Shown here one piece after another: positions 33,170 to 50,391 of a stretch of DNA of 64,000 nt. The stretch comes from Allosalinactinospora lopnorensis. Its GTDB lineage: Bacteria; Actinomycetota; Actinomycetes; Streptosporangiales; Streptosporangiaceae. The notes below the pieces were generated by a model. The model had not been told where the DNA came from, did no database searches, and was given only the letters and a program-made list of their open reading frames with translations. Where the stretch lies: positions 1-64,000 of the forward strand of contig NZ_LAJC01000008.1 in assembly GCF_000981225.1 (NCBI RefSeq), read 5' to 3'. The translations under genes were made by a program, and so were the position numbers. Each line of letters starts with the position of its first letter. The first letter of the stretch is position 1.

Positions 33170-34600
33170 TCACGGCCAGATATGCGCCCACGGCCGGACC
33201 TGCTCGAAAGCGCGACTCGCCGCCATGACCAGGGCGTCCGAGTGCCGAGGGCCGACGATCTGCAACCCCACGGGCAGCCCCGCCTCGGTGAATCCGCAGG
33301 GCACGCTGGCGGCCGGCTGCTGGGTCATGTTGAACGGGTAGCAGAACCCGGCCCAGCTCGTCCAGCGGCGCTCGGTGGAGTCCGGCGGCACCTCCAGACC
33401 GACCTCGAAGGCCGGGATGGGCATGGCCGGGGTGAGCAGGAGGTCGTACTGCTGATGGAACAGCCCCATGCGCAGACCGAGTTCCATGCGGGTGGCCATA
33501 GCCGTGAGGTAGTCCTGGGCGGAGTAGCTCAGGCCCTCCTCGATGATCTCGCGCAGACCGGGGTCGAGCAGCTCCCGCTGCTCGCCGGTGAGCTTCTCGG
33601 TGGCCTTGGCGGCACCGGTGAACCAGAGGACGTGGAAGTCCTCCAGGCACTCGAAGATCCCCGGATCGGTCTCGTCGACGTGCGCGCCGAGCTCCTCGAA
33701 GGCCCGCACCGCGGCGGCGGTGATGCGCGCCACCTCCGGATCGACCGATACGTGCCCAAGGGTGGGGCTGAAGGCGATGCGCAGGTCCTTGACCGGCCGG
33801 TCCAGCGCCTCGGTGAAGCTGACGGCCGGCGGCGCGAGCGCCCCCCAGTCGCGCGGGTCGGCTCCCGTGATGACGTCGAGCATCAGCGCGGCATCGGCGA
33901 CGGTGCGCGTCATCGGTCCGGAGTGGGCCAGACTCCCGAACGCGCTCGCCGGATAGTGCGGGACCAGCCCCCACGTCGGCTTGATGGAGAAGATGCCGGT
34001 GAAGCTGGCCGGGATCCGGACGGACCCGCCGGCATCGGTCCCTGTCGCCAACGGGGCCATACCCGCGGCGACCGCGGCCGACGCCCCGCCGCTGGAACCG
34101 CCGGGCGTCTTGGACAGGTCCCACGGATTCCGGGTGATCCCGGCGAGCGGGCTGTCGGTGACGCCCTTCCAGGCGAACTCGGGAGTCGTCGTCTTGCCCA
34201 CGAAGACCGATCCGTGTTCGCGCAGCCGGGCGACCACGGGAGAGTCCTCCAGCCACTGCTGGTTCCGGTCGGCCGTGAGGGAGCCCTTCAGTGTGGGCCA
34301 GCCCTGCGTGAGCATCATGTCCTTGATGGAGGCGGGAATCCCGTCGAGCCGCCCTTGGGGCTCGCCGCGCCGCCAGCGCTCCTCGGAGGCCCGCGCCGCC
34401 TTTCGCGCGTCGTCCGGCTCGACCAAGCAGAACGCGTTGAGCGCGGGGTTCTCCCGCTCGATGCGCTCCAGAACGGCGTCGGTGGCCTCCACCGGGGACA
34501 GATCGCCGCGCGCGTAGCCGGCGAGAAGTTCGGTCGCGGACAACGTAGCGGGCGAGTCGGCCGCCCCACTTCCCGGAGACCCCGGCCGCGGTGCGGGCAT
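33170..34600 (-). CDS. amidase-signature family hydrolase
   Basis: The roughly 476-residue enzyme has the Ser-cisSer-Lys triad: Lys93 (PASIKDMM), Ser170 (TPGGSSGGAS) and Ser193 (GTDAGGSVRIP). Its substrate is an unknown amide. Start choice: ATG 34600 (GGGGGAC upstream); TTG 34642 is possible. It ends a two-gene unit with the 2-hydroxyacid dehydrogenase. Together with the divergent DUF3830/isomerase genes, it may remove an amide nitrogen during catabolism of an amide or cyclic imide. Confidence 0.88.
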   Translation of the reverse strand: MPAPRPGSPGSGAADSPATLSATELLAGYARGDLSPVEATDAVLERIERENPALNAFCLVEPDDARKAARASEERWRRGEPQGRLDGIPASIKDMMLTQGWPTLKGSLTADRNQQWLEDSPVVARLREHGSVFVGKTTTPEFAWKGVTDSPLAGITRNPWDLSKTPGGSSGGASAAVAAGMAPLATGTDAGGSVRIPASFTGIFSIKPTWGLVPHYPASAFGSLAHSGPMTRTVADAALMLDVITGADPRDWGALAPPAVSFTEALDRPVKDLRIAFSPTLGHVSVDPEVARITAAAVRAFEELGAHVDETDPGIFECLEDFHVLWFTGAAKATEKLTGEQRELLDPGLREIIEEGLSYSAQDYLTAMATRMELGLRMGLFHQQYDLLLTPAMPIPAFEVGLEVPPDSTERRWTSWAGFCYPFNMTQQPAASVPCGFTEAGLPVGLQIVGPRHSDALVMAASRAFEQVRPWAHIWP

Positions 34601-34694
34601 CCGCTCGTCCCCCCGGTCCGTCCCCTCGAACTTGGTACTCAACTTTTCCGCCTCTTTTCCGGTCTTCGGTGGTGGCCAGGAGAGAAGGAACGCC

Positions 34695-35702
34695 TCAGGA
34701 TCCGGCGACGTAGCCGCGCCGCTTGTCGACGACATTGCGCAGCTCGCGCCCTTCAAGGAAACGATCGAGGTTGTCGCGGAACAGGTCGACCAGCGACGCG
34801 CGCCAGCCGACGACGTCGCCCGACATGTGCGGCGAGACGATCACCCCGGGCAGGTCCCACAGCGGAGACGTCTCGGGCAGCGGCTCGGACTCGAAGACGT
34901 CCAGCGCGGCACCGGCGATCGTGCCCTCCCGGAGGGCCTCCACCAGGTCGTCCTCCACGACGAGCTGTCCGCGGGCGACGTTGATCAGCCGGGCGGTGGG
35001 TTTCATCCGCGACAGCGCTTCGGCTCCGACCAGGCCGCGAGTCGCGGCGGTGAGCGGGGCGGCGACGACGACATAGTCGGCGCGGGGCAGCGCGTCCCCC
35101 AGGTCCGGGGCCGCCCCGGCGTCCAGGGAGGCCTGGACCACGGCGCCGAAGTCGGTATCGGACGCGCGCGCCGTGCGGCCGGCCCCTTCGACGCTCATCC
35201 CGATCGCGCTGAGCTGGCGGGCGATGGCGCGGCCAATGGGACCGGTGCCGATGACGAGAGCGTGCCGCCCGCCGACACGTTCGGTCTCGCGATGCCGCCA
35301 CACCCTGTTCCGCTGCAGTTCCTGGCTTCCGGGGAAGTCCTTGGCGAAGCTCAGCACCAGGCCGAGCACGTACTCGGCCATGGGCTGGTCGAAGACTCCG
35401 CGGGAGTTGGTGACCGCGACATCGCTGTCCACCAGGCCGCGGAACATGAGGTTGTCGACGCCGGCCGTGGCGGCGTGCACCCACCGCAGGGCGTCGGCCT
35501 TCGGCCACGCGGCGGCGACCGCCTCAGAGAACAGGTCCCAGACGAATAGCGCCTGCGCACCGGGCAGCGCCTCGGGCAACCGGTCGGCCGTGGCGTAGCG
35601 GACCGACGCGAGCCGGGGGTCGGCGTCGATCCTCTCGTGGCCGGGCGGAAGATCCTTCCCGTGCAGGACGACAAGATGCGGCTGCTGCGGCTGGGTGGTC
35701 AC
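34695..35702 (-). CDS. D-isomer-specific 2-hydroxyacid dehydrogenase
   Basis: The roughly 335-residue NAD(P)-dependent oxidoreductase has a Rossmann motif VIGTGPIGRAIARQL (about 150), the catalytic Arg in INVARGQLV, Glu in DVFESEPLP and His in VSPHMSGD. It interconverts a 2-keto acid and a D-2-hydroxy acid. The start is GTG 35702 with GGGAG upstream; an ATG at 35828 would add an unlikely basic extension. A copy of the GATTGT-CA-ACAATC palindrome lies 224 bp upstream. Confidence 0.85.
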   Translation of the reverse strand: MTTQPQQPHLVVLHGKDLPPGHERIDADPRLASVRYATADRLPEALPGAQALFVWDLFSEAVAAAWPKADALRWVHAATAGVDNLMFRGLVDSDVAVTNSRGVFDQPMAEYVLGLVLSFAKDFPGSQELQRNRVWRHRETERVGGRHALVIGTGPIGRAIARQLSAIGMSVEGAGRTARASDTDFGAVVQASLDAGAAPDLGDALPRADYVVVAAPLTAATRGLVGAEALSRMKPTARLINVARGQLVVEDDLVEALREGTIAGAALDVFESEPLPETSPLWDLPGVIVSPHMSGDVVGWRASLVDLFRDNLDRFLEGRELRNVVDKRRGYVAGS

Positions 35703-35925
35703 GGAGGCGGCTCCCTGCTGCACAACGTGGGTGGTCGGGTTCTCGTGTCGGTGCTTCCCCTGCTTGGAGTCGCCATATCCACTCGCCGCGTTTTTCCTCC
35801 GCCGACGGGCACCGACCGGGGATTCCAAAGACGGGATCGCCGCTCATGGCGCCCCCACTGGCTGTCACAGCCCCATGACCGAACGGGGGCTCCATGGCCA
35901 ATGCCAAGCTAGGGAGCACTGGTAG

Positions 35926-35939
35926 GATTGTCAACAATC
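35926..35939. promoter_or_regulatory. GntR-type palindrome, site 1
   Basis: GATTGTCAACAATC (arms GATTGT/ACAATC, 2-bp spacer), identical to sites at 36120 and 43041. It lies upstream of the hydroxyacid dehydrogenase-amidase unit. The 35703-36364 interval otherwise shows no gene. Confidence 0.7.
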
Positions 35940-36119
35940 TCACTTGAGGAGAACCCCCTCTTCAGGGCGAGCGAGAGCACGGGCCTTGTTGCCGCTCCTC
36001 ACGGCGGCCCGACCGCAGAACGACCCCGCATACTCTGAGCCCAGAGTCGGATACGCCGCAGGCCGCCGCATCCGGAGCGGGGCGGGGGGCCATTGAAGAG
36101 CCCGCCAACGCGCTCCTAT

Positions 36120-36133
36120 GATTGTCAACAATC
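36120..36133. promoter_or_regulatory. GntR-type palindrome, site 2
   Basis: Same 14-bp sequence as site 1, upstream of the DUF3830-isomerase-GntR genes (start 36365). Confidence 0.7.
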
Positions 36134-36364
36134 CGCGACCCCAGCGTCTGTCGTGGAGGAAGTCGACATCGTTAACCCTGTTCTCGGATAACTCCGTTCT
36201 CAGCACATTGTCCACTTCACCCGGGCCCGGTCGGTCCTGCCCAGGGACCGCGACCGGGCCGGTGAATCCGCAGACTTCCGAAGACTCCGGGAGCGCGGGC
36301 CTCCGCGGGCAGCGGTCGCCGCGCTCCAACACCCCAGCCCCACACCGAAAGGGCCGAGCCGACG

Positions 36365-36856
36365 ATGCCCAGGTACATGACCATCAGCTTGGAGAAGCGC
36401 GGTGTTTCCTGCGTGGCGGAGCTCCTCGACAAGGACGCGCCGCGCACGTGTGACGTGGTCTGGAACGCACTGCCGCAGGGCGGCGACATCTACCACGCGA
36501 AATACGCCCGCAACGAGGTCTACGCGATGGTGCCCCGGTTCGCCGCTGAGGAGCCGGGGCGGGAGAACCCCACCGTCACCCCCATACCCGGCGATGTCGT
36601 GTACTTCTCTTTCGACGGCGGCATGCTCGACCGCCGGTTCAAGGAAGAGAAGAGCATCGACCACCTGCCCGGCGTCATCGACCTCGCCATCTTCTACGGC
36701 CGCAACAACCTCCTCCTCAACGGTGACGTGGGCTGGGTGCCTGGCAACGTCTACGCCACCATCGTCGAGGGGCTCGACCGCATGGCCGAGGCGTGCAACG
36801 ACGTCTGGCGTTCCGGGAGCATCGGCGAGCGCCTGACCTACCGGCGCAAGGAGTAA
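36365..36856 (+). CDS. DUF3830 family protein
   Basis: The 163-residue protein is of the DUF3830 (cyclophilin-like fold) family. Landmarks are MTISLEKRGVSCVAELLDKDAPRTCDVVWNALP-type opening, GDIYHAKYARNEVYAMVP, PIPGDVVYFSF and IDLAIFYGRNNLLLNGD. Function unknown; members are often encoded beside Asp/Glu-racemase-superfamily and amidase genes. Here it is first in a row with two maleate-isomerase-like genes and a GntR regulator, with the shared palindrome 230 bp upstream. Confidence 0.85.
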   Translation: MPRYMTISLEKRGVSCVAELLDKDAPRTCDVVWNALPQGGDIYHAKYARNEVYAMVPRFAAEEPGRENPTVTPIPGDVVYFSFDGGMLDRRFKEEKSIDHLPGVIDLAIFYGRNNLLLNGDVGWVPGNVYATIVEGLDRMAEACNDVWRSGSIGERLTYRRKE

Positions 36857-36962
36857 CGGCGGGCACCGCGGGTTCCCCCGCCCGGCCCCGGTGCGGGACC
36901 GGGCGGGAACCGGCCAGGAAACACGACCGGAAAAGACGAGAAGAGAAGGGGGTGAATGACCA

Positions 36963-37862
36963 ATGCGGCCCGATCGGCTCGCCGGTGAAGCGGCGCACGG
37001 TGCTGAAAAGGAAGAGCGGGTCATCCTCGACCAGACGGGGGCGGCCACGCCCCTGCACGGCCACCGCGCCACGGATTCCGAACAGGACACCGCGGATTCG
37101 CTGCACAACGTCGTCGAGATCTCGGCTCTGCAGGAGACCCCGTGGCAGTCCGGCGTGGGGATCGTCGCGCCCTACGACTTCGCGCTCGACCGCGAACTGT
37201 GGCGCTGGGCGCCCGACGACATCTCCCTGTACGTCACGAGGCTGCCCTTCGTCCGGGTCCCGGTCACCGTGGACCAGGCCTCGGCCCTCAGCGACGCCGA
37301 GAACGTGGCGCGGGCGACCCGCGACCTGCTCGCGCCGGAACCGCTGGTGGTCGGGTACGCATGCGCGTCGGGCAGCTTCGTGCACGGGCTGGAGGGCGAG
37401 GATCGGCTGCGCCGGAGCATCCTCGACGCGGGGGCGCCGAGCGCGGTCACCACCTCCGGTGCGCTCATCCGGGCGCTCGACACGCTAGAGGCGCGCCGGA
37501 TCGCGGTGGTCACCCCCTACGTCGACAGCGTCACCGAGCGCCTGGTCAGCTACCTCGCCGAACACGAGGTGGAGACGGTTTCGAGCGTGGGTCTGGGGCT
37601 ACTCAGCCACATCTGGAAGGTCGCCTACTCCGAGGTGGTGCAGGCGGTCCGCGAGGCCGACCGCCCCGAGGCCGAAGCCATCTTCATCAGCTGCACCAAC
37701 GTGCTCACCTACGACATCATCGCCCCCTTGGAGCGCATGCTCGGCAAGCCGGTCATCGCCGCCAACCAGGTGACCATGTGGGCCGCGCTCCACGCCATCG
37801 GACGGCAGGCGGTGGCCCACGGGCAGCATCTCGTCGACACCACCGGCCTGACAGCCGCATGA
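36963..37862 (+). CDS. maleate isomerase / arylmalonate decarboxylase family protein, paralogue 1
   Basis: The 299-residue member of the Asp/Glu racemase superfamily has both catalytic-type cysteines: Cys134 (GYACASGSF) and Cys244 (FISCTNVLTYD). The closing motif is LGKPVIAANQVTMWAALHAIG. This pattern fits cis-trans isomerases of maleate-like acids, or a decarboxylase/racemase of a substituted malonate. The N-terminal 50 residues are unlike the family, so a later start is possible. It is followed after 37 bp by a second, shorter paralogue. Confidence 0.85.
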   Translation: MRPDRLAGEAAHGAEKEERVILDQTGAATPLHGHRATDSEQDTADSLHNVVEISALQETPWQSGVGIVAPYDFALDRELWRWAPDDISLYVTRLPFVRVPVTVDQASALSDAENVARATRDLLAPEPLVVGYACASGSFVHGLEGEDRLRRSILDAGAPSAVTTSGALIRALDTLEARRIAVVTPYVDSVTERLVSYLAEHEVETVSSVGLGLLSHIWKVAYSEVVQAVREADRPEAEAIFISCTNVLTYDIIAPLERMLGKPVIAANQVTMWAALHAIGRQAVAHGQHLVDTTGLTAA

Positions 37863-37899
37863 GACCGGGCCGCACATTCGCGAAGGGAGACCAAGCCCA

Positions 37900-38643
37900 A
37901 TGACCACCACGGGCTTCCTGTACCCGGGATACAGTGCCGAAGACGATTACCCCGTGTTCTCGGAGCGGCTCGGCCCCGACGTCACCCTGCACGTCGCGCA
38001 CACCCTGATGCGTGAGGACGCGCACCGTGTCGACGCGCTGCTGGACGTCGGCGGCGCGGACGTCCTCGCTGACGGCGCCCGCGAGTTGCGCGGCCTCGGC
38101 GTGGAATCAGTCGTGTGGGCATGCACCAGCGGCAGCTTCGTGTTCGGCTGGGACGGCGCGAAGAAGCAGGTCGACGGGGTGCACGGCGTCGCCGGTGTGC
38201 CGGCGTCCAGTACGTCGTTCGCGTTCGTCAACGCCGTCCGGCACCTGGGCCTGCGCCGCGTGGCGATCGCCGCCAGCTACCCGGACGACGTGACACTGCG
38301 GTTCGTGGAGTTCCTGCGCGACGGCGGAATCGAGGTGGTGGCGACCGCCAGCCGCGACATCATCACCGCGGCCGAGGTGGGGACGCTCGCCCCGGCCGAG
38401 GTACTGGACTTCGTGGCCCTCAACGACCACGAGGACGCCGAGGCGGTTCTGGTTCCCGACACCGCGCTGCACACCGTGCGGATCCTGGATGATCTGGAGC
38501 GGCGACTGGGTAAACCGGTACTGACCGCCAACCAGGTGAGCGTGTGGGAAGGACTCCGGCTGGCCAGGGCGGACGCGCCCCGCGATGGCCTGGGTTCCCT
38601 GTTCCGCGCGGACGCGGAGGTGCCGACCGCCGCCGATGACTGA
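37900..38643 (+). CDS. maleate isomerase-like protein, paralogue 2, lacking the second cysteine
   Basis: The 247-residue paralogue of the preceding gene keeps the first cysteine (Cys75 in WACTSGSF) and the end motif LGKPVLTANQVSVWEGLRLA. Where the family has SCTN it reads VPDTALHT, so Asp187 takes the place of the second cysteine. Either it works with a one-cysteine mechanism or it forms a heteromer with paralogue 1. A GGGAGACC element precedes the ATG. Confidence 0.82.
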   Translation: MTTTGFLYPGYSAEDDYPVFSERLGPDVTLHVAHTLMREDAHRVDALLDVGGADVLADGARELRGLGVESVVWACTSGSFVFGWDGAKKQVDGVHGVAGVPASSTSFAFVNAVRHLGLRRVAIAASYPDDVTLRFVEFLRDGGIEVVATASRDIITAAEVGTLAPAEVLDFVALNDHEDAEAVLVPDTALHTVRILDDLERRLGKPVLTANQVSVWEGLRLARADAPRDGLGSLFRADAEVPTAADD

Positions 38644-38727
38644 CAGTAGTAAGGGAAAATGGGGCGGTCAGGAGTAGAACCCACTCCTGGCCGCCCTGTC
38701 CGTTCGACAGAGAGGTGCGCGGATGCG

Positions 38728-39474
38728 ATGAGTATCCCAGGCCAGCTCGAACCCGTACCCCGCAAATCCACCGCCGCCGTCATCGCCGACCAGCTCCGGT
38801 CCGCGATCATGTACGGCGCCCTGACTCCGGGCGACCAACTGGGAGAAACCGACCTCGCCGGGCAACTGGGAGTGAGCCGCGGCCCCCTGCGGGAGGCCAT
38901 GCAGCGGCTGGTGCAGGAGGGCCTGCTGCGCAGCGAGCGGCACCGAGGCCTGTTCGTCCGCGAACTCACAGCGGAGGACGTCCGCGACATCTACGTCTCC
39001 CGGCTCGCCATCGAACGCGCCGCATGTGAACTGATCATGCGCGGCAACCGCGGAGAGGCACTGGCCCGGCTGACAGCCGTGCTCCAGGACCTGGTGCGGG
39101 CGGCGGACTCCCGCGACCGTGTGGCGATGAGCGATGCCGACCAGGCGTTCCACCAGGCCCTTGTGAGCTGCTCGGGCAATTCCCGGCTGGAGCGCATGAC
39201 CCAGACCCTGCTCGTGGAGACCCGCATGTGCCTGACGGTCATGCAGGAGGTCTATCCCGAGCCCACCGAGCTCGTGGAGGAGCACCAGAAGCTGGTCGAC
39301 GCCATCGCCGACGGCGACGAGAAACTCCTGCTGCACCTCATCGAGTCGCACATGCTCGAAACGGTCGCCCGGATCAACGATCCGGACGGCACCGGCCGGC
39401 CGCCTCCCGCAGGGAGGGGCCGAACAGCGGAAAGACACGCCACAGTATTGCGTAATGCCCAACCCTTTGCGTAA
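38728..39474 (+). CDS. GntR-family regulator, FCD/FadR subfamily
   Basis: The 248-residue protein has an N-terminal winged helix (about 10-75: GALTPGDQLGETDLAGQLGV, SRGPLREAMQRLVQEGLLR) and an all-alpha FCD domain (about 85-220). The FCD domain carries the metal-ligand-like pattern DADQAFHQALV, EHQKLVDAI and LIESHM. Such regulators bind carboxylic acids. It is the best local candidate for the GATTGT-CA-ACAATC sites. The start at 38728 is preferred to 38659, which lacks family-like sequence. Confidence 0.85.
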   Translation: MSIPGQLEPVPRKSTAAVIADQLRSAIMYGALTPGDQLGETDLAGQLGVSRGPLREAMQRLVQEGLLRSERHRGLFVRELTAEDVRDIYVSRLAIERAACELIMRGNRGEALARLTAVLQDLVRAADSRDRVAMSDADQAFHQALVSCSGNSRLERMTQTLLVETRMCLTVMQEVYPEPTELVEEHQKLVDAIADGDEKLLLHLIESHMLETVARINDPDGTGRPPPAGRGRTAERHATVLRNAQPFA

Positions 39475-39482
39475 TACCCAAC
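39448..39482 (+). repeat. two 16-bp direct repeats at the end of the GntR gene
   Basis: TTGCGTAATGCCCAAC (39448-39463) and TTGCGTAATACCCAAC (39467-39482) are spaced 19 bp start to start. They overlap the GntR stop codon and precede the formate-THF ligase gene by 120 bp, so they may be its regulatory element. Confidence 0.6.
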
Positions 39483-39599
39483 ACACCCTGACAATGGAAG
39501 GTGGGAGTTCCTCCGCCACACTCGTTGACGGTCCTCCCACAGCCATAGGCACGTTCCACGCAGAGGGTTCCCCGAACGCGACACGCCAGGGGTGGTGGC

Positions 39600-41297
39600 A
39601 TGCAAATTCCCAGTGACTTGGAGATCGCCCGTGAGGCGGCACTGAAGCCTCTCACCAGCATTGCTGAGAGGATGGGCATCAGATCGGATCTCCTGGAGCA
39701 GTACGGCGAGAGCGTGGTGAAGGTGCGGCTGGAGGCCGCCGACGAACTCGCCGAGCGGCCGCGGGCGCGCTACGTGGTCGTGACCGCCGTGACCCCGACC
39801 CCGCTCGGCGAGGGCAAGACCACGACCACGGTGGGGCTCGGCGACGGGCTCAACCGCATCGGCAAGCAGACCACCGTGGCGATCCGCCAACCCTCCATGG
39901 GACCGGTCTTCGGCATCAAAGGCGGAGCGGCCGGGGGCGGCTACAGCCAGGTCGTCCCCATGGAGACACTCAACCTGCATCTCACCGGGGACATCCACGC
40001 GGTCGGTGCCGCGCACAACCTGCTGGCCGCGATGCTGGACAACCACCTCTACCAGGGCAACACCCTCGAAATCGACCCGCACAGCATCACGTGGCGCCGG
40101 GTGCTGGACGTCAACGACCGCTCACTGCGCAACATCATCACCGGCCTGGGGGGACGCACCGACGGAACGCCGAGGCAGACCGGCTTCGACATCACCGCGG
40201 CGTCGGAGGTGATGGCTCTGCTGTCGCTGAGCACATCACTGCGCGACCTGCGCAGCAGGCTCGGCCGGATCATCGTCGGCAACACCCGTTCCGGGAAGCC
40301 GGTGACCGCGGAGCAGTTGGGCGCGGCCGGTGCGATGGCGGCGCTGCTCCGCGACGCGATCAAACCGAACCTGCTGCAGACCCTGGAGCACACACCGGTA
40401 CTGGTGCACACCGGTCCGTTCGGCAACATCGCCACCGGCAACTCCTCCGTGGTCGCCGACCTCATCGGTCTGCGGTCAGGGGACTTCCTGGTCACCGAGG
40501 CCGGGTTCGGCGCCGACATGGGTGCGGAGCGCTTCTTCAACATCAAGTGCCGGATCTCCGGCAACGCGCCCGACGCCGCCGTCGTCGTGGCGACCGTGCG
40601 CGCGCTGAAGACGCACTCCGGCAGGCACAAGGTGGTGGCGGGCCGCCCGCTCCCCGAGGAGATCCTCGCCGAGAACCCCGACGATGTCCGGGCCGGCGCG
40701 GCCAACCTGCGCAAGCAGATCGAGAACTGCCGGCTGCACGGGGTCTCGCCGGTGGTCGCGGTCAACGCGTTCCCCACCGATCACCCCTCGGAGCTTGAGG
40801 AGGTGCGACGGATCGCCACCGAGGCGGGGGCCCGCAGCGCGGTGTGCACGAACGTCCCCGACGGCGGCCGGGGAGCGGAGGAGTTGGCGGCGACCGTGGC
40901 CGAGGCGGCAGAGGAGTCCAGCGACTTCACCCTGCTCTACCCGGACCACGCGCCCCTGCGGGAGAAGGTCGAGTCGGTGGCCCGCAACGTATACGGAGCC
41001 GACGGGGTCGAGTACAGCAAGCTCGCCGCCCAGCAGATCGACTCCTGCGAACGCAACGGCCTGGGCACCCTTCCCGTGTGCATCGCCAAAACCCACCTGT
41101 CGATCTCCGCGGACCCGCAACTCCGGGGGGCGCCGACCGGCTGGACGCTGCCGGTCCGGGAGGTCCGGGCGTCAGCGGGCGCCGGATTCGTGTATCTGAT
41201 CTGCGGGACGATGCAGACGATGCCCGGCCTGAGCGGGTCGCCCGCCGCGTTCCACATCGACCTCGACGACGAAGGCCGGATCAGCGGCCTCTCGTAA
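39600..41297 (+). CDS. fhs: formate-tetrahydrofolate ligase
   Basis: The 565-residue enzyme makes 10-formyl-THF from formate, THF and ATP. The P-loop TPLGEGKTTTTVGLGDGL (about 63) and RQPSMGPVFGIKGGAAGGGY (about 97) are typical. The full family length is present. It follows the GntR gene and is closed by a strong terminator. In this context it probably recycles formate released by catabolism, or supports growth on one-carbon fragments; formamidase at 18385 is another formate source. Confidence 0.93.
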   Translation: MQIPSDLEIAREAALKPLTSIAERMGIRSDLLEQYGESVVKVRLEAADELAERPRARYVVVTAVTPTPLGEGKTTTTVGLGDGLNRIGKQTTVAIRQPSMGPVFGIKGGAAGGGYSQVVPMETLNLHLTGDIHAVGAAHNLLAAMLDNHLYQGNTLEIDPHSITWRRVLDVNDRSLRNIITGLGGRTDGTPRQTGFDITAASEVMALLSLSTSLRDLRSRLGRIIVGNTRSGKPVTAEQLGAAGAMAALLRDAIKPNLLQTLEHTPVLVHTGPFGNIATGNSSVVADLIGLRSGDFLVTEAGFGADMGAERFFNIKCRISGNAPDAAVVVATVRALKTHSGRHKVVAGRPLPEEILAENPDDVRAGAANLRKQIENCRLHGVSPVVAVNAFPTDHPSELEEVRRIATEAGARSAVCTNVPDGGRGAEELAATVAEAAEESSDFTLLYPDHAPLREKVESVARNVYGADGVEYSKLAAQQIDSCERNGLGTLPVCIAKTHLSISADPQLRGAPTGWTLPVREVRASAGAGFVYLICGTMQTMPGLSGSPAAFHIDLDDEGRISGLS

Positions 41298-41313
41298 CCG
41301 CGCAGAGGCACCG

Positions 41314-41355
41314 GCCGTCCCCGGGTGGAATGCCGGCATTCCACCCGGGGACGGC
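41314..41355. terminator. 42-bp perfect palindrome terminator
   Basis: Exact 21-bp arms between convergent fhs and gabD. Confidence 0.85.
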
Positions 41356-41366
41356 GGCCGCACGGC

Positions 41367-42836
41367 TCAGACCCCGCCGATACCGACGTACTTGGTCTCC
41401 AGGAACTCGTCGATGCCGACCTGGCCGCCCTCGCGGCCGAGCCCCGAGTGCTTGACGCCGCCGAACGGTGCGGCCGGGTTGGAGACGATGCCCTGGTTCA
41501 GCCCGACCATCCCGGTCTCCAGTCCCTCCGAGACCCGGAACGCGCGGTTCAGGTCACGCGTGTACACGTAACTGACCAGGCCGTACTCGGTGTCGTTGGC
41601 GTCGGCGAGGGCCTCCTCCTCGGTCTCGAACGTGATGATCGGCGCCACCGGTCCGAAGATCTCGGTGCTGGAGAGCTCGCTCTCCTGCGGGACGTCGGCG
41701 AGCACCGTGGGGCGGTAGAAGTACCCGGCGCCTTCGTCGGGTCCGCCGCCGACCATGACCCGGGCACCCCGGTTCACGGCGTCGTCCACCAGGTGCTGCA
41801 CCTTCTCCCGCGCCTTGCCGTCGATCAGCGGGCCGACCTGGACGCCCTCCTCGGTGCCGCGTCCGACCGTGAGCGCGCCCATCCGCTCGCTGAGCCGTTC
41901 GGCGAACCGGGGCGCGATGCCCGCCTGGACATAGATCCGGTTCGCCGCGGTGCACGCCTCACCGATGTTGCGCATCTTGGCCTGCATCGCGCCGTCGACC
42001 GCCGCGTCCAGGTCGGCGTCGTCGAACACCAGGAACGGAGCGTTCCCGCCCAGTTCCATGGACGTCCGCAGCACCTGGTCGGCGCTCTGCTCCAACAGCT
42101 TGCGGCCGACCGTCGTGGATCCGGTGAAGGACACCTTGCGGATCCGGCCGTCCCGCAGCAGCGGCTCGGTGACACCACCGGCGTCGGTCGTGGGGAGCAC
42201 GCTCAGCACACCCTCGGGCAGTCCCGCCTCGCGCAGGATGTCGGCCAGCGCGAGCGCCGACAGAGGCGTCTGCTGGGCCGGTTTGAGGATCGACGTGCAG
42301 CCGGCGGCGATGGCCGGGCCGATCTTGCGCGTGCCCATGGCCATGGGGAAGTTCCACGGCGTGATGAGCATGGACGGCCCCACCGGCTGCTGCATGATGA
42401 GGAACCGGGCCTGGCCGTTGGGCGAGATGGAGAAGCCCCCTTCGATGCGCACGGCCTCCTCGGAGAACCAGCGCAGGAAGTCGGCGGCGTAGGCGATCTC
42501 CCCCTTCGCCTCGGCCAGCGGTTTGCCCATTTCCAGCGTCATGAGGAGGGCGAGGTCCTCCTGGCGCTGCATCAGCAGTTCATAGGCGCGCCGCAGGATC
42601 TCCCCGCGTTCGCGCGGCGCGTGCTTGGCCCAGGTGGGCTGGATCCGTACCGCGGCGTCCAGAGCAGCGAAGGCGTCGTCGGTCCCGGCGTTGGCGACCT
42701 CGCACAGCACCGATCCGGTAGAGGGGTCCTCGACCTTGAACGTCCCGCCGGAGGCGGCGTCGCGCCATTCTCCCCCGATGAACAGCCGCTTGGCGACCTG
42801 TTCGACGACTCGTTCCTCGTGACCTGCCAAGACCAT
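41367..42836 (-). CDS. gabD: succinate-semialdehyde dehydrogenase family protein
   Basis: The 489-residue aldehyde dehydrogenase has PWNFPMAMGTRKIGPAIAAG (about 150), FTGSTTVGRKLL, the catalytic Glu in MELGGNAPF and Cys in GEACTAANR, and PFGGVKHSGLGREG at the end. Divergent from a GabT-type transaminase, it probably oxidises succinate semialdehyde to succinate; other semialdehydes are possible. The start at 42836 has GGAAG upstream. The shared palindrome (43041) lies in the divergent promoter. Confidence 0.88.
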   Translation of the reverse strand: MVLAGHEERVVEQVAKRLFIGGEWRDAASGGTFKVEDPSTGSVLCEVANAGTDDAFAALDAAVRIQPTWAKHAPRERGEILRRAYELLMQRQEDLALLMTLEMGKPLAEAKGEIAYAADFLRWFSEEAVRIEGGFSISPNGQARFLIMQQPVGPSMLITPWNFPMAMGTRKIGPAIAAGCTSILKPAQQTPLSALALADILREAGLPEGVLSVLPTTDAGGVTEPLLRDGRIRKVSFTGSTTVGRKLLEQSADQVLRTSMELGGNAPFLVFDDADLDAAVDGAMQAKMRNIGEACTAANRIYVQAGIAPRFAERLSERMGALTVGRGTEEGVQVGPLIDGKAREKVQHLVDDAVNRGARVMVGGGPDEGAGYFYRPTVLADVPQESELSSTEIFGPVAPIITFETEEEALADANDTEYGLVSYVYTRDLNRAFRVSEGLETGMVGLNQGIVSNPAAPFGGVKHSGLGREGGQVGIDEFLETKYVGIGGV

Positions 42837-43040
42837 GATCTTCCACGTCCCTTCCGGGCTGGAGCGTCGTCTGGTGTTCCTGCCTCGGTCACCCGCGCGC
42901 GTGCGCGCCCGAACAGCGGAACCCCATTGGTACGCCTTCCCCATCTCGGCGTTCGCTAACGGTGTCCCCGGGGTAAGCAGGGGAAGGATGCGAGCTGGCA
43001 ATGGACACCGCCACATGGCGGATGATTCCATAGCGCCGTC

Positions 43041-43054
43041 GATTGTCAACAATC
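43041..43054. promoter_or_regulatory. GntR-type palindrome, site 3
   Basis: GATTGTCAACAATC, identical to 35926 and 36120, sits 21 bp before the gabT start and 205 bp before gabD. Confidence 0.75.
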
Positions 43055-43074
43055 CTACGGAATGAGGTCAGAGA

Positions 43075-44340
43075 ATGGCTGAGCAGCCGGCCGGGCTCTC
43101 CCCGATCCTGAAGCAGGCGACGCCGGTTCTCGCCGCTCGGGGTGAGGGCGTCTACATCTACGACGAGGAGGACCGCCGCTATCTCGACTTCACCGCTGGG
43201 ATCGGCGTCACCAGTACGGGCCACTGCCACCCCAAAGTGGTCGAGGCGGCGCAGCGCCAGGTCGGGACGCTGGTCCACGGCCAGTACACGACCGTGATGC
43301 ACCGGCCGCTGCTCCGACTCACCGAGCGACTGGGATCGGTGCTGCCCGAAGGGATCGACCGGCTCTTCTACGTCAACTCCGGAAGCGAGGCCGTGGAGGC
43401 GTCGCTGCGCCTCGCGCGCCAGGCCACGGGACGGCAGAACGCCATCGTGTTCCAGGGGTCGTTCCATGGACGGACCATGGCGGCGGCCTCGCTGACCACC
43501 TCCGGGGTGAAGATCCGCGCCGGCATCGGACCGCTGATGCCCGGCGTCGCGGTCTCCCCCTTCCCCTACGCCTACCGGCTGGGCATGACCGAGGCCGAGG
43601 CCACCCGGTACGCCCTCCAGGAGCTGGACTACCTGCTGGCCACCGTCAGCTCCCCCAAGGACACCGCGGCGATCTTCATCGAACCGGTGCTCGGCGAGGG
43701 CGGCTACGTTCCCGCGCCGCCGGCCTTCCTCGAAGGACTCCGCGAGCACGCCGACAAGCACGGCATCCTGCTCGTCGCGGACGAGGTGCAGACCGGGTTC
43801 GGCCGCACCGGGAGGTTCTGGGGCCACGACCACGCCGGGATCCGGCCCGACATCGTGATCACCGCCAAAGGCCTGGCCAGCGGATTCCCGCTGTCGGCGA
43901 TCGCCGCGCCGCACGAGCTGATGGAGAAGGCGTGGCCGGGCTCCCAGGGAGGCACCTACGGCGGCAACGCCGTCGCCTGCGCGGCCGCCCTGGCCACCCT
44001 GGACGTCATCCAGGAGGAGGGCCTCGTGGAGAACGCGGCCCAGATGGGCGAACGGCTGCAGAAGGGACTGCGCCAGATCGCCGACTCCCATGAGGTGATC
44101 GGCGACGTGCGCGGGCTGGGCCTGATGCTCGGCAACGAGTTCACCGCCCGCGACGGCTCCCCCGACGTCGACACCGCCACCCGCGCGCACAAGGCCGCCG
44201 CGGACATGGGGCTGCTCCTGCTCACCTGCGGCCCGCACGGCAACATCGTGCGGATGATCCCGCCGCTGATCGTGACAGCGGAGCAGATCGACGCCGCCCT
44301 GGAACTCTGGTCGGACGCCGTCGCCGAGGCCACCAACTGA
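43075..44340 (+). CDS. gabT: 4-aminobutyrate aminotransferase family protein
   Basis: The 421-residue class III PLP aminotransferase has YVNSGSEAVEASLRLARQATG (about 100), VADEVQTGFGRTG (about 240) and the PLP lysine in ITAKGLASGFPLSAI (about 265). It probably converts GABA or another omega-amino acid to a semialdehyde for the divergent GabD. A GAGGTCAGAG ribosome-binding site precedes the ATG. Confidence 0.9.
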   Translation: MAEQPAGLSPILKQATPVLAARGEGVYIYDEEDRRYLDFTAGIGVTSTGHCHPKVVEAAQRQVGTLVHGQYTTVMHRPLLRLTERLGSVLPEGIDRLFYVNSGSEAVEASLRLARQATGRQNAIVFQGSFHGRTMAAASLTTSGVKIRAGIGPLMPGVAVSPFPYAYRLGMTEAEATRYALQELDYLLATVSSPKDTAAIFIEPVLGEGGYVPAPPAFLEGLREHADKHGILLVADEVQTGFGRTGRFWGHDHAGIRPDIVITAKGLASGFPLSAIAAPHELMEKAWPGSQGGTYGGNAVACAAALATLDVIQEEGLVENAAQMGERLQKGLRQIADSHEVIGDVRGLGLMLGNEFTARDGSPDVDTATRAHKAAADMGLLLLTCGPHGNIVRMIPPLIVTAEQIDAALELWSDAVAEATN

Positions 44341-44447: not shown

Positions 44448-46243
44448 CTACCGCTCCGTGTAGGTCACCGACTGCGGGACCTCGTCACGGCGCCGCCAGA
44501 AGTAGACGGCGAGCAGCAGCAGGATCACCAGCACGGTCGCCAGCCCGATCGAGCCGACGTTGAAGCCGAGCCCGAAGCTGAGCACGTAGCGAGCATGCCG
44601 GCGGTCAGGCAGTAGTAGACCATCGGGATGATGGTCTTGCGGATGAGCGCGCCTTCGCGGTCAACCAGGCCGACCGTCGCGCACGCCGCGACGACGTTGT
44701 GCACGGTGATCATATTGCCCGCCGCGCCGCCGACCGCCTGCGCGCCCACGACGATGTTGGTCGGCGCGCCGATCTGCTCGGCCGTGGAGAACTGGAACAG
44801 CGAGAACATCAGGTTGCTCACGGTGTTGCTCCCGGCCGCGAACGCCCCCAGGGCGCCGATCCACGGGGCGAACACCGGCCAGGACTCCCCTGCCAGCGCC
44901 GACGCTCCCGCGGCCAGCGACAGCGGCATGCTCTCCAGGTCGGAGGTGTTGAAATTGGCACCGGAGTTGATGAAGACCCGGACCATCGGCACGGCGCAGA
45001 GCAGCGCGACGGCGGCGATCCCGATCTGCGTGCCGGCCGTCATGAGGGACTGGCTGATCTGGCGCGGGGACATGCGGTGGATCAGGTAGGTCAGCACGAC
45101 CGCCACGAGGAACACGAAGCCGGGCGACCACACCGGAGCGAAGTCCGCGCCGGCGTCCGTGCCGAAGATGTTGGCCCACTCCAGCGTCACGGCCTGCAGC
45201 GGCTCGGCGAACAGCAGGCGCGTCAGGAGCAGCAGTACCGCGACGAGCACGTAGGGGGTCCAGGCCCGGACGATCCCCATGTCCTCGCTGGTGACCTCGC
45301 GGGTGTCCGGGACCAGCCGGCCCATCCACTCGGGCGCCCAGCTCTTGCGGGGGGCGAAGTCCCACGGCTGGGAGGGCACGAGGAACCCGCGCTGCGCAGC
45401 GAACACCACGACCATGAGCCCGATGAGACCGCCGAGCAGCGCCGGGAACTCCGGCCCCAGCAGCCAGGCGACGAGCACGTAGGGGATCGTCATGGCGAAC
45501 GCCGCGAACAGCGCGAACGGCGCGACCTTCAGGCCGTCGGCGACGCTGCGCCGCTCCCCGAAGAAGAAGGTGAGCATGCAGACCATGAACAGCGGGATCA
45601 GGGTCCCCACTGTGGCGTGCATGCCCGCGACGGCGATCGTGACATCGCCGGTGACGTAGGCGGTCAGGTCCGTTCCCGCGGCATCCAGGCTCTGCTGGAC
45701 GTTCGGCGCACCCGCGAGGCCGTCGTGCACCCCGACCAGGATGGGGGTCCCGACCGCGCCGAAGCTCACCGGTGTGCTCTGGATGATCAGACCGACCATC
45801 ACCGCGGCCATCGCGGGGAAGCCCAGGGCGAGCAGCAGCGGCGCGGCCACGGCGGCCGGGGTCCCGAAGCCCGAGGCGCCCTCGATGAAGCTGCCGAACA
45901 GCCAGGCGATGATCACCGCCTGCACCCGGCGGTCGGGGCTGATGCGCGTGAACGCCGCGCGGATCGACCGGATCGCCCCGCTGGCGTTCAGCGTCGACAG
46001 CAGCAGTAGTGCACCGAAGACGATGTAGAGCAGACCGAGGGCGATGATGAAGCCCTCGATGGTCGACGCCGCGATCTCCAGCCACCCCACCTGCCAGACG
46101 AAGGCGGCGATGAGCACGACGACGACGTACCCCACGGGCATTGCGTACTTCGCGGGCCATCGCAGGCCTACCAGCAGCACACCGATCGTGATGATCGGCA
46201 GCAGCGCCAATAGGCTCAGGACCGCCAGATTGTCGGTCAGCAT
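44448..46243 (-). pseudogene. lldP: L-lactate permease, one frameshift near the C-terminus
   Basis: The LctP-family carrier of about 598 residues has 12 or more transmembrane spans. Typical pieces are [19 protein letters not shown] (about 125), [20 protein letters not shown]-type sequence ([16 protein letters not shown]) and [17 protein letters not shown]. After GMLA the frame breaks at about 44589; one missing base lets it continue as [20 protein letters not shown] and a final membrane helix, ending TYTER at 44448. It would import lactate for the LutABC complex encoded divergently. The start has GAGAGGAAC upstream. Confidence 0.82.
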
Positions 46244-46284
46244 GGTGTTCCTCTCCGGGCGCGCGACACGCCACCACTAGCGCG

Positions 46285-47010
46285 TCACGGGTGTCCTTCT
46301 TCTGTCGGGGATCGACCGCTTTGCGACCACAACCTGGCGGCTCCGGCACGCATGACCGCCTCGGACGCGGCGAGGTGTTTTTCCAGCGCGGCGCACGCAC
46401 GATCGCAGTCGCCGTTCTGCAGCGCTTCCAGCACGGCCCGGTGCTCGCCCGATTTCGCGGCGACCGTCGGATCGTGCCGCTGCACCCAGCCGATCACCAG
46501 CCGGACCTGGTCGGCCTGCATGTCCCAGGCGGCCAGCAGCCGACCGTTGCCCGCTATCGAGGCGATGTTGCGATGGAAAGCCAGGTCGGCTTCGGTGGCC
46601 GAGGAACGGTCACCCTCGTCCAGAGCCATCTCAAGGGCGTCGAGGTCCTCGCTGAGCTCGGGAAGCATCGCGCGCACGTCCTCGTGATCAGCGGTCTGAA
46701 GCGAAAGCCGTTCGAGCACGCTACGCACCGTGTAGATCTCCGCTACGTCCTTGGTCGTGAGGGATACGACCCGGGCGCTGCGCCGGGAGCTCAGTTCCAC
46801 GAGCCCCACCCGCGCGAGCTCTGACAGAGCCGTCCGGACGGGGCCACGGCTCACTCCCAACCGCTGGGCGAGATCGGCCTCGACCAGACGCTGGCCGGGA
46901 ACCAGCTCGCCGAGCACGATGAGCTTGCGTAGCTCGGCGAAGACCTCCGCCCATAGCTCGGAGTGCTGCGGACCAATGAGTCGCATGCTCGCGACCTTTC
47001 GCTTCGTCAT
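46285..47010 (-). CDS. GntR-family regulator, FCD subfamily (lactate-utilisation context)
   Basis: The 241-residue protein has a winged helix (about 15-80: PGQRLVEADLAQRLGVSRGP) and an FCD domain (ADLAFHRNIASIAGNGRL, EHRAVLEAL, EKHLAAS). It lies 42 bp upstream of lldP and divergent from lutABC, the position of a lactate-responsive LutR/LldR-type regulator. An alternative start at 46986 (MRLIGPQ) has an AAAGG element and is possible. Confidence 0.85.
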   Translation of the reverse strand: MTKRKVASMRLIGPQHSELWAEVFAELRKLIVLGELVPGQRLVEADLAQRLGVSRGPVRTALSELARVGLVELSSRRSARVVSLTTKDVAEIYTVRSVLERLSLQTADHEDVRAMLPELSEDLDALEMALDEGDRSSATEADLAFHRNIASIAGNGRLLAAWDMQADQVRLVIGWVQRHDPTVAAKSGEHRAVLEALQNGDCDRACAALEKHLAASEAVMRAGAARLWSQSGRSPTEEGHP

Positions 47011-47166
47011 TTATCTCTGGGTGTGTATGATCTGTGCCACGCTAGAACTTGTCAACGGAGATCAGTTCTCAGATTTCGGTTAACTGTTTACCGGACCGAG
47101 GCGGCCCGAGGATGGATCACTCTCCCGGACCGCACTCGAACTCGCCGGCTGGAAGGGAGACCGGGC

Positions 47167-47907
47167 ATGCGCATCGCGCTGTTCGTCACCTGTCTCAACG
47201 ACACCCTGTTCCCGGACACGGGGCGGGCGGTGGTGCGGCTGCTGGAGCGGCTGGGGCACGAGGTGGTCTTCCCCCGCGCGCAGACGTGCTGCGGGCAGAT
47301 GCACTACAACACCGGCTACCGCCGGGAGGCCCAGCGCCTCGCGGCCCGGTTCGTCGAGACCTTCGAGGAGGCCGACGCGGTACTGGTGCCCTCCGGGTCG
47401 TGCGCGGCGATGGTGCGCGACAACTACCCCCGGCTGGGCACCGAGGGCAGCCTGCCGGAACGCGAGACCGCGGAGCTGGTACCGCGGGTGTACGACCTCT
47501 CGGAACTACTGGTGGACGTACTCGAGGTGGTCGATGTCGGGGCCTACTTCCCGCACACCGTCACCTACCACCCCACCTGCCACGGGCTGCGCCTGCTCGG
47601 CCTCGGGGACCGCCCCTACCGGCTGCTGCGGGCGGTCCGGGGCCTGGAACTGCTGGAGCTGGGCGGGGCGGCCGAGTGCTGCGGCTTCGGCGGCACCTTC
47701 GCGATGAAGAACGCCGACGTGTCGTCCGCCATGGGATGGGACAAGGCACGACAGGTGGCCCAGACCGGAGCGGAGGTGCTGTGCGCGGTGGACAACTCCT
47801 GCCTGATGCACATCGGCGGCACACTGAACCGCCAGCACTCCGGGGTACGCGCGATGCACCTGGCCGAGATCCTGGCCAGCACTGAGAAGGAGCCCGCACG
47901 CATATGA
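47167..47907 (+). CDS. lutA: lactate utilisation protein LutA-type (CCG-domain protein)
   Basis: The 246-residue protein has two cysteine-rich CCG domains: QTCCGQMHYNTGYR (about 40), PSGSCAAMVRDNYP, and AAECCGFGGTFAMKN (about 180) with DNSCLMHIGG. Together with LutB and LutC it forms the L-lactate-oxidising complex known from Bacillus. The start at 47167 follows AAGGGAGA; longer open frames lack family sequence. It overlaps lutB by ATGA. Confidence 0.92.
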   Translation: MRIALFVTCLNDTLFPDTGRAVVRLLERLGHEVVFPRAQTCCGQMHYNTGYRREAQRLAARFVETFEEADAVLVPSGSCAAMVRDNYPRLGTEGSLPERETAELVPRVYDLSELLVDVLEVVDVGAYFPHTVTYHPTCHGLRLLGLGDRPYRLLRAVRGLELLELGGAAECCGFGGTFAMKNADVSSAMGWDKARQVAQTGAEVLCAVDNSCLMHIGGTLNRQHSGVRAMHLAEILASTEKEPARI

Positions 47908-50201: not shown

Positions 50202-50274
50202 GCGCTCGTAGCTCAATGGATAGAGCATCTGACTACGGATCAGAAGGTTGGGGGTTCGAATCCTCCCGAGCGCG
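50202..50274 (+). tRNA. tRNA-Arg (ACG)
   Basis: A 73-nt cloverleaf: acceptor GCGCTCG pairs with CGAGCGC, discriminator G, no encoded CCA. The D-arm contains AGCTCAATGGATAGAGC. The anticodon arm TCTGA-CTACGGA-TCAGA has anticodon ACG, and the T-loop is GGTTCGAATCC. It is the attachment target of the integrative element: its 3' 42 bases form most of attL and are repeated at 60156. Confidence 0.95.
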
Positions 50275-50276
50275 CC
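50233..50276 (+). repeat. attL (44-bp att core within tRNA-Arg)
   Basis: Identical to 60156-60199. It covers the anticodon loop through the tRNA 3' end plus two bases. Confidence 0.93.
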
Positions 50277-50295
50277 GCCTTGAGACAGCGAAGAT

Positions 50296-50327
50296 AAGGC
50301 CCGACCTGCGAAAACAGGCCGGGCCTT
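50296..50327. terminator. hairpin after tRNA-Arg, element side
   Basis: Thirteen-bp arms with one mismatch around CGAAAA, followed by TTC. It can end both the tRNA and int transcripts. Confidence 0.65.
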
Positions 50328-50391
50328 TTCTTGTGTGGACCGGTCCCGATCGCGGAACCGGGCTTTCTGCTAACAGGCTTGCTAACACGCG

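Follow-up and report, generated by a model that had tools for sequence, protein, structure and literature searches.

A conserved palindromic operator and a DUF3830-containing gene core point to a probable actinomycete regulon for the breakdown of ectoine and/or 5-hydroxyectoine

In the 64,000-nucleotide stretch of Allosalinactinospora lopnorensis DNA analyzed here (the window), three identical copies of a 14-bp palindrome, GATTGTNNACAATC, lie among genes for catabolic enzymes and a GntR-type regulator, raising the questions of whether the palindrome marks a single regulon and which compound the encoded enzymes consume. A first-pass annotation had placed the copies at 35926, 36120, and 43041, upstream of three gene units. 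All three were recovered at those positions, gene positions agreed at each of them, and every domain named there was found (amidase, 2-Hacid_dh, DUF3830, two of the Amdase family, GntR plus FCD, Aldedh, class III aminotransferase, and Fhs). The features are as follows.

33170..34600, minus strand: amidase-signature enzyme, PRK06169 family (763.8 over 506 bits); start codon inferred
34695..35702, minus strand: D-2-hydroxyacid dehydrogenase family protein (HADH), 2-Hacid_dh domain; start codon inferred
35926..35939, strand not applicable: operator O1, exact GATTGTNNACAATC, upstream of the hydroxyacid dehydrogenase-amidase unit
36120..36133, strand not applicable: operator O2, exact GATTGTNNACAATC, 232 bp upstream of DUF3830
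36365..36856, plus strand: DUF3830 protein, cyclophilin-like fold
36963..37862, plus strand: AmdA, AMDase/EutA family, cysteines at both catalytic positions
37900..38643, plus strand: AmdB, AMDase/EutA family, first Cys kept, invariant Asp replacing the second
38659..39474, plus strand: GntR/FCD regulator with GntR and FCD domains, Asp-His3 site kept
39600..41297, plus strand: formate--tetrahydrofolate ligase Fhs, a neighbour outside the conserved core
41367..42836, minus strand: aldehyde dehydrogenase (SSADH-like), Aldedh domain; start codon inferred
43041..43054, strand not applicable: operator O3, exact GATTGTNNACAATC, in the gap between the aldehyde dehydrogenase gene and the divergent aminotransferase gene, 21 bp ahead of the start of the latter
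43075..44340, plus strand: class III aminotransferase, class III aminotransferase domain

For the exact palindrome, a motif scan of all 5,892,467 bases of the genome returned 4 sites and its reversed control 0, base composition predicting 0.03 per genome and 0.0003 per window. The fourth site is on another contig and precedes, by 248 bp, the gene for a BCCT (betaine-type) transporter, so that the regulon extends beyond 33170-44340. Allowing one mismatch added 5 sites genome-wide, against 1 in the reversed control. Window shuffles, which allowed two mismatches and did not cover exact sites, gave a mean of 0.81 sites, with 2 of 100 shuffles reaching 3.

Across 19 genomes there are 50 exact sites, 47 of which have a regulon-type gene no more than 450 bp downstream, and the same genes keep the operator in relatives even when they are placed on different contigs. 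The pattern TTGTNNACAA gave 198 sites when scanned over the 80 named loci, which are the best 80 of 561 relatives. It is present in 79 of these loci, and all but one of the sites (197) precede regulon genes; the reversed control gave 1. Within the same family and order, the exact operator is present in 19 of 20 DUF3830-positive genomes versus 5 of 48 DUF3830-negative ones. The genome-wide scan and the sites in relatives showed no spread over many unrelated promoters, which bears out the earlier suggestion that the palindrome marks one regulon. LctP (44525-46243) and a second GntR gene (46285-47010) were considered as further members and rejected, as no palindrome was found there even when two mismatches were allowed; because LutA-like and LutB genes follow, these two look like a separate lactate unit.

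On the minus strand of O1, a -35 box TTGACA (35934-35929) is contained within the operator, and TAGCTT (35911-35906) stands at 17 nt as a -10 box; together these form the predicted promoter of the hydroxyacid dehydrogenase-amidase genes. Of 90 sites in relatives, 78 carry TG as the spacer on the HADH strand, which completes TTGACA; a conserved TAGCGT follows 17 nt further on. The CA spacer of the palindrome is therefore not arbitrary, because the complementary strand then reads as a -35 box. Co-occurrence with the palindrome genes is what makes the GntR/FCD protein at 38659-39474 their likely regulator. Its residues D161, H165, H209, and H231, the Asp-His3 site of FCD-type GntR regulators, are invariant in 84 of 84 aligned sequences.

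The conserved core comprises five genes, encoding DUF3830, HADH, the amidase, and the two AMDase/EutA-like proteins AmdA and AmdB. Nocardiopsis alba (locus L128) is one of the actinomycetes that have it. In the amidase, K128, S204, and S228, the Lys-Ser-Ser triad of the amidase signature family, are kept in 94 of 94 aligned sequences. The Cys/Cys pair of AmdA and the Cys/Asp pair of AmdB are each kept in 99 of 99. Both proteins score above the Pfam Amdase cut-off; neither reaches the NCBIfam AMDase cut-off, nor the 318 bits required for EutA (TIGR02990; AmdA 109.9 and AmdB 87 bits). For DUF3830, the fold neighbours with known function are the Pictet-Spenglerases McbB and KslB (134 residues superposed at 2.0–2.2 Å, Z 18.5–18.6; E 0.13 against McbB by sequence), and because of this resemblance DUF3830 is a candidate for a ring step. 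Residues H44, Y47, E51, and E67 of DUF3830 are invariant. A DUF3830 structure, 3KOP, was released in 2009 labelled as an uncharacterized protein. Open-access literature searches returned no paper containing 'DUF3830' and no title or abstract start describing this gene set. No match was seen when plasmid records were searched with DUF3830, and a Bacillota DUF3830 (L148, 66% identical) has no comparable cluster around it.

The substrate was approached through the genes that accompany the core in relatives. In one genus (f20/g80, probably Streptomyces), DUF3830 is found in 67 of 121 sampled genomes. All 67 also encode the ectoine/hydroxyectoine binding protein EhuB above its equivalog cut-off, in 64 cases within 3.6 kb of DUF3830 (median 255 bp). 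The co-occurrence is significant (Fisher p 9e-9), although 34 EhuB-positive genomes of the genus without DUF3830 count against the link. At one f20 locus (L199), each of EhuB, C, D, and A scores above its curated cut-off, and EhuB matches the ectoine-binding EhuB structure 2q88 at 4e-52, the next chain following at 3e-22. All 12 f20 loci read carry the five core genes together with EhuBCDA, and no match to the aminotransferase/aldehyde dehydrogenase pair was found in these clusters. The exact operator was seen in 0 of 15 f20 genomes scanned, and an IclR gene is present in 11 of 12 f20 loci; the f20 link to the core is therefore one of gene neighbourhood alone. In the two scanned sets of genomes taken together, 26 of 43 DUF3830-positive genomes have the exact operator.

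Carriers and hydrolases elsewhere point in the same direction. ProP-like carriers adjoin the core or follow the operator in f3, f5, f6, and f21 genomes, and a BCCT gene stands behind the operator in two genomes. ProP-like and BCCT carriers are broad and can take other zwitterions, and the ProP-like protein that was scored reached 396.7 of the 544 bits required for ProP. In an Arthrobacter-like genome (G066), a relative of DoeA (416 of 613 bits) and an M20 deacylase are both encoded behind operator-like sites; against solved structures, the former matches DoeA at 3.5e-104, with 352 bits versus 78 for the next family. Since this genome keeps both besides the amidase, the core does not simply take their place. 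Plasmid neighbourhoods of HADH relatives were also inspected (nine read, of 105 records): one, from Mesorhizobium sp. AR02, has an annotated doeA, two further ones encode an Asp/Glu racemase together with a member of the M24 peptidase family, and L209, which has no annotation, gave no match when searched for DoeA. These neighbourhoods were set aside as independent proof of substrate, the family being too broad and doeA appearing in 1 of 9. Homarine was likewise dropped as a substrate, a literature search having given only papers on other solutes.

From what was computed directly, namely the conserved operator, its genes, the -35 overlap, and the association with Ehu, DoeA, ProP-like, and BCCT genes, we infer an actinomycete catabolic regulon for ectoine and/or 5-hydroxyectoine that operates without EutD/DoeA in nearly all genomes examined. 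Ectoine is a natural compound that protects cells from salt stress. The substrate is deduced by association, and we put the probability of this reading at roughly two in three. The GntR/FCD protein would repress the promoters by binding GATTGTNNACAATC where it overlaps or adjoins them, and would be released by a pathway intermediate. In the genome of the window, the BCCT carrier would import the solute, which DUF3830, the hydroxyacid dehydrogenase, the amidase, AmdA, and AmdB would open, deacylate, and process. The known pathway ends by converting diaminobutyrate through aspartate semialdehyde to aspartate, and the class III aminotransferase and aldehyde dehydrogenase may finish in the same way. 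As for single steps, our guess is that DUF3830 acts on the ring, the amidase in deacetylation, and AmdA, AmdB, and the dehydrogenase on the hydroxyl of 5-hydroxyectoine. A bolder version, in our eyes doubtful, is a second, independently built ectoine route in actinomycetes, in which DUF3830 would open the ring, a Pictet-Spenglerase fold working in the breaking direction, and the Cys/Cys and Cys/Asp couple would handle the hydroxyl with the hydroxyacid dehydrogenase, replacing EutABC.

Another zwitterionic or N-heterocyclic solute sharing ectoine carriers (proline betaine, carnitine, a lactam, or a cyclic imide) could be the substrate instead, the Ehu and DoeA relatives having shifted in specificity. 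The breadth of the BCCT and ProP-like carriers, the sub-threshold ProP-like and DoeA-like scores, and the EutA cut-off missed by AmdA and AmdB all fit this reading. Yet the four Ehu components of L199 pass their curated cut-offs, with EhuB nearest to an ectoine-binding structure, and among solved structures it is DoeA that comes closest to the G066 hydrolase. The three types of carrier indicate the same solute class as this hydrolase does, and we regard a different solute as unlikely.

Much less probable still is the proposal of the first-pass annotation, breakdown of an amide, imide, or nicotinate-like compound to a semialdehyde with formate assimilated by Fhs, for which the amidase, the maleate-isomerase-like folds, and Fhs itself could be cited. 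Apart from the window's genome, just one relative (G006, 1 of 80 named loci) was seen to have Fhs beside the cluster; the gene is not conserved with the cluster, and formate assimilation as a pathway step is not supported. The linked carriers are of osmolyte type, and no ring oxygenase is present among the identified regulon genes, leaving maleamate/nicotinate or cyclic-imide substrates unsupported. A formamidase gene lies about 14 kb away, and is a further point that this proposal can claim. A GABA shunt or beta-amino-acid catabolism with accessory genes is similarly improbable. In general scans the aminotransferase and aldehyde dehydrogenase do come out close to GabT and GabD, but the names gabT and gabD given earlier could not be kept: the aminotransferase missed the curated GABA transaminase cut-off (380 of 506.65 bits) and the dehydrogenase those of the SSADH models (590.9 of 828 and 584.8 of 646 bits). 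The pair is, moreover, the part without a match in the 12 f20 clusters, which carry the five core genes and Ehu.

Should the ectoine reading hold, the DUF3830 family, including 3KOP, would gain a testable role, a defined operator-regulator pair would be on offer, and DUF3830 would serve as core marker, present in over half (67 of 121) of the sampled genomes of one large genus. The ectoine-consumer surveys of PMC5924519 and PMC13188858 take EutD as marker; under the same reading, they would overlook a group of actinomycete consumers that is widespread.

The closest known systems are the EutABCDE/DoeABCD clusters of Pseudomonadota (Ruegeria, Sinorhizobium, Halomonas). Shared with them are an ectoine-class transporter, an Asp/Glu-racemase-superfamily protein, GntR-superfamily control, a class III aminotransferase, and an SSADH-like dehydrogenase; the last two match the canonical enzymes in kind, here as a divergent pair with its own operator. 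PMC5924519 also describes a hydroxyacid dehydrogenase gene of undefined role, hdhD, in some clusters. The present regulon differs in its extra components (the amidase, DUF3830, and a second Amd protein) and in its regulator, which has GntR and FCD domains only, no MocR-type EnuR being found at the cluster. It differs also in EutD/DoeA (TIGR02993, 613 bits), above cut-off in 0 of 44 genomes (best 416, in G066; 173.8 bits in the window's genome), and the canonical EutD pathway was rejected on this count. Searches with EutD and EutB queries have turned up putative clusters in Bacillota and Actinomycetota (PMC13188858, 2026). They resemble the present ones in their Gram-positive hosts and in nearby BCCT, MFS, or Ehu carriers, but are EutD-based, whereas the present core has no EutD above cut-off in those 44 genomes.

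At the level of single proteins, DUF3830 is like McbB and KslB in fold, at 22% identity and without a second domain. AmdA and AmdB belong by Pfam Amdase to the arylmalonate decarboxylase/EutA/maleate isomerase family, and depart with Cys/Cys and Cys/Asp from the Gly74/Cys188 pair given for AMDase proper in PMC4996985. The regulator shares with the FCD subfamily of the GntR family its two domains, the Asp-His3 site, and a short palindromic operator, and is set apart by its target genes.

The 14-bp inverted repeat that the first-pass annotation had placed at three positions in the window (GATTGT and ACAATC arms, 2-bp spacer) was recovered as an exact match at each of them. The sites and the proposed regulator are as follows:

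35926 and 36120, operators between the divergent 2-hydroxyacid dehydrogenase (HADH)-amidase genes and DUF3830-AmdA-AmdB-GntR
43041, operator between the divergent aldehyde dehydrogenase and aminotransferase genes
38659-39474, GntR/FCD protein, likely the regulator of the regulon

In the whole genome (5,892,467 bases, 220 contigs), one further exact copy was found, at position 9313 of contig C37; the reversed control sequence gave no exact match in the same bases, and about 0.03 exact palindromes per genome are expected from base composition. Allowing one mismatch added five sites, versus one control site. The fourth copy lies 248 bp upstream of a BCCT-family transporter gene, a layout shared by a relative, G006, whose BCCT protein is 81% identical.

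The operator and its genes were then followed across relatives. A survey of 100 genomes, counting that of the window, found DUF3830 in 20, and 19 of these 20 carry exact palindromes, 50 sites in total; among 48 of the 80 DUF3830-negative genomes, drawn from the same family and order, the exact palindrome occurs in 5, one of which (G064) has regulon genes at its sites. By a scripted count, 47 of the 50 exact sites have a regulon-type gene no more than 450 bp downstream. Two of the three exceptions are in G062 (L071 5720-8690), where they flank a second group of ProP-like, GntR-like and AmdA-like genes; the third has a TA spacer and is part of an unrelated unit. This form, GATTGTTAACAATC, adjoins a DUF6282-family gene in two genomes (L070 5463-7169; L074 544-2055), one of which also encodes an adjacent FCD-domain protein, and such sites possibly mark another FCD regulon whose operator is nearly the same. 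In G052 (L079 61-1473), the gene next to an exact palindrome encodes a GntR-FCD protein with a fused RraA-like domain.

The named loci are mostly close relatives, since they are the best 80 of 561, 56 of the 80 being longer than 20 kb. Within these best 80, DUF3830 (the query) was present in 80, AmdA and AmdB in 79 each, GntR in 77, amidase in 75, HADH in 74, aminotransferase in 63, aldehyde dehydrogenase in 31, and Fhs in just 1; they hold 198 TTGTNNACAA sites, 197 of them upstream of regulon genes, versus one reversed-control site. In four genomes (G007, G008, G059, and G063) the aldehyde dehydrogenase/aminotransferase pair keeps its operator though on a contig apart from the core. G153 divides the regulon between two contigs, with the palindrome at a ProP-like gene, an amino-acid dehydrogenase, and DUF3830 on one, and at HADH-amidase, AmdA, AmdB-GntR, and the pair on the other; the sites preceding the amino-acid dehydrogenase and AmdB are one-base variants. 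A second sample of 23 DUF3830-positive genomes was mixed, with exact sites in 6 of 7 from family f6, 1 of 1 from f21, and 0 of 15 from f20. The regulon is very likely real and conserved.

On the HADH strand, the spacer is TG at 78 of 90 sites, and the palindrome therefore includes TTGACA, followed 17 nt later by a conserved TAGCGT (TAGCTT in the window). The aldehyde dehydrogenase side has a TG spacer at 25 of 31 sites, and for the aminotransferase the median distance between site and start codon is 17 bp. Judged from sequence, such an arrangement is what would be expected of a repressor covering the promoter or transcript start.

Other features of the window are listed here:

44525-49361, consecutive genes for an LctP-type permease, a second GntR/FCD regulator, and LutA-like and LutB proteins; probably a unit for lactate utilisation, distinct from the palindrome regulon (permease and regulator kept together in G006)
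18385-19638, formamidase FmdA (651 bits; cut-off 500), which might supply formate; Fhs is encoded in this window too
50202-51645, tRNA-Arg(acg), then a tyrosine-recombinase-like ORF (71.6 bits, under its cut-off), a possible integration site

The substrate was approached through neighbouring genes. In genus f20/g80, probably Streptomyces, 15 DUF3830-positive genomes were found, and the five core genes adjoin EhuB, C, D, and A in 12 of 12 loci read. At L199, the one locus scored, all four exceed the NCBIfam curated cut-offs (EhuB, 272.4 over 190.9; EhuC, 228.9 over 196.95; EhuD, 265.8 over 205.2; EhuA, 359.9 over 345.4), and its EhuB has EhuB 2q88 as nearest solved structure. The solved EhuB binds ectoine and 5-hydroxyectoine, according to the portion available of PMC5924519. 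Across 121 genomes of the genus, EhuB was over cut-off in 101 and DUF3830 present in 67, all among those 101; the two lie within 3.6 kb in 64 of the 67 (median 255 bp) and on separate contigs in the other 3. Of the 12 loci (L193-L204), 11 contain an IclR gene, and in 9 a luciferase-like (LLM) oxidoreductase gene adjoins AmdB.

Genomes of f3, f5, f6, and f21 have ProP-like carriers alongside the core or its operator; the one protein scored reached 396.7 of 544, under the ProP cut-off. The DUF3830 of G066, compared by eye, is almost the same as 3KOP (Arthrobacter sp. FB24). In that genome, one-base palindrome variants precede a row in which HADH leads on to a DoeA relative, a PLP enzyme, and an M20 deacylase. 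This DoeA relative scores 416 bits and has DoeA as its closest solved structure (3.5e-104); G066 is the sole genome of 44 above 200 bits in the EutD search. EutD was over cut-off in 0 of the 44 (41 with DUF3830), and the best match in the window's genome was a distant M24 protein at 173.8 of 613 bits. From three carrier families and one hydrolase, found across several lineages, we infer a probable ectoine-class substrate (about 0.7). Counting against it are EhuB without DUF3830 in 34 f20/g80 genomes, the lack of exact palindromes in all 15 f20 genomes, a lone Bacillota DUF3830, and the plasmid-borne HADH relatives, whose neighbourhoods (9 records read of 105) mostly show no ectoine genes. On plasmid pMspAR02c of Mesorhizobium sp. 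AR02 (L210), an annotated doeA lies near an LLM flavin oxidoreductase and an HADH relative; an SSADH-like gene at this locus spans two reading frames.

The predicted DUF3830 model (pLDDT 90.6) matched 3KOP best (Z 28.0), followed by McbB (18.6) and KslB (18.5), with TM1367 (14.5) and cyclophilins (12.3-12.9) lower; at the sequence level, McbB is a weak match (E 0.13). Ring closure by McbB and KslB proceeds via imines. As ectoine is a cyclic amidine, DUF3830 is a plausible candidate for opening the ring; in a rival reading, it would act on a cyclic imine further down the path.

As far as the accessible text of PMC5924519 goes, the known pathway runs through EutD, EutE, Atf, and Ssd, and EutABC are the proposed enzymes for the hydroxyl group; that 2018 review describes gene content as variable, lists a hydroxyacid dehydrogenase without assigned role, and holds ectoine consumers to be Proteobacteria only. 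Putative Gram-positive clusters were reported in 2026 from EutD and EutB queries (PMC13188858, in part). The present gene set was not found described in the available portions of either paper.

Conservation was scored over 101 loci at residues we take to be catalytic, loci without an alignable match at a position being left out of that count. Retained were the amidase Lys-Ser-Ser (94 of 94), HADH Arg and His (93 of 93), GntR Asp-His3 (84 of 84), and both AmdA cysteines (99 of 99). AmdB has Cys75 and Asp187 in 99 of 99 (register from the alignment), a pair that differs from that of the racemases and from the Gly74/Cys188 given for AMDase in the accessible part of PMC4996985.
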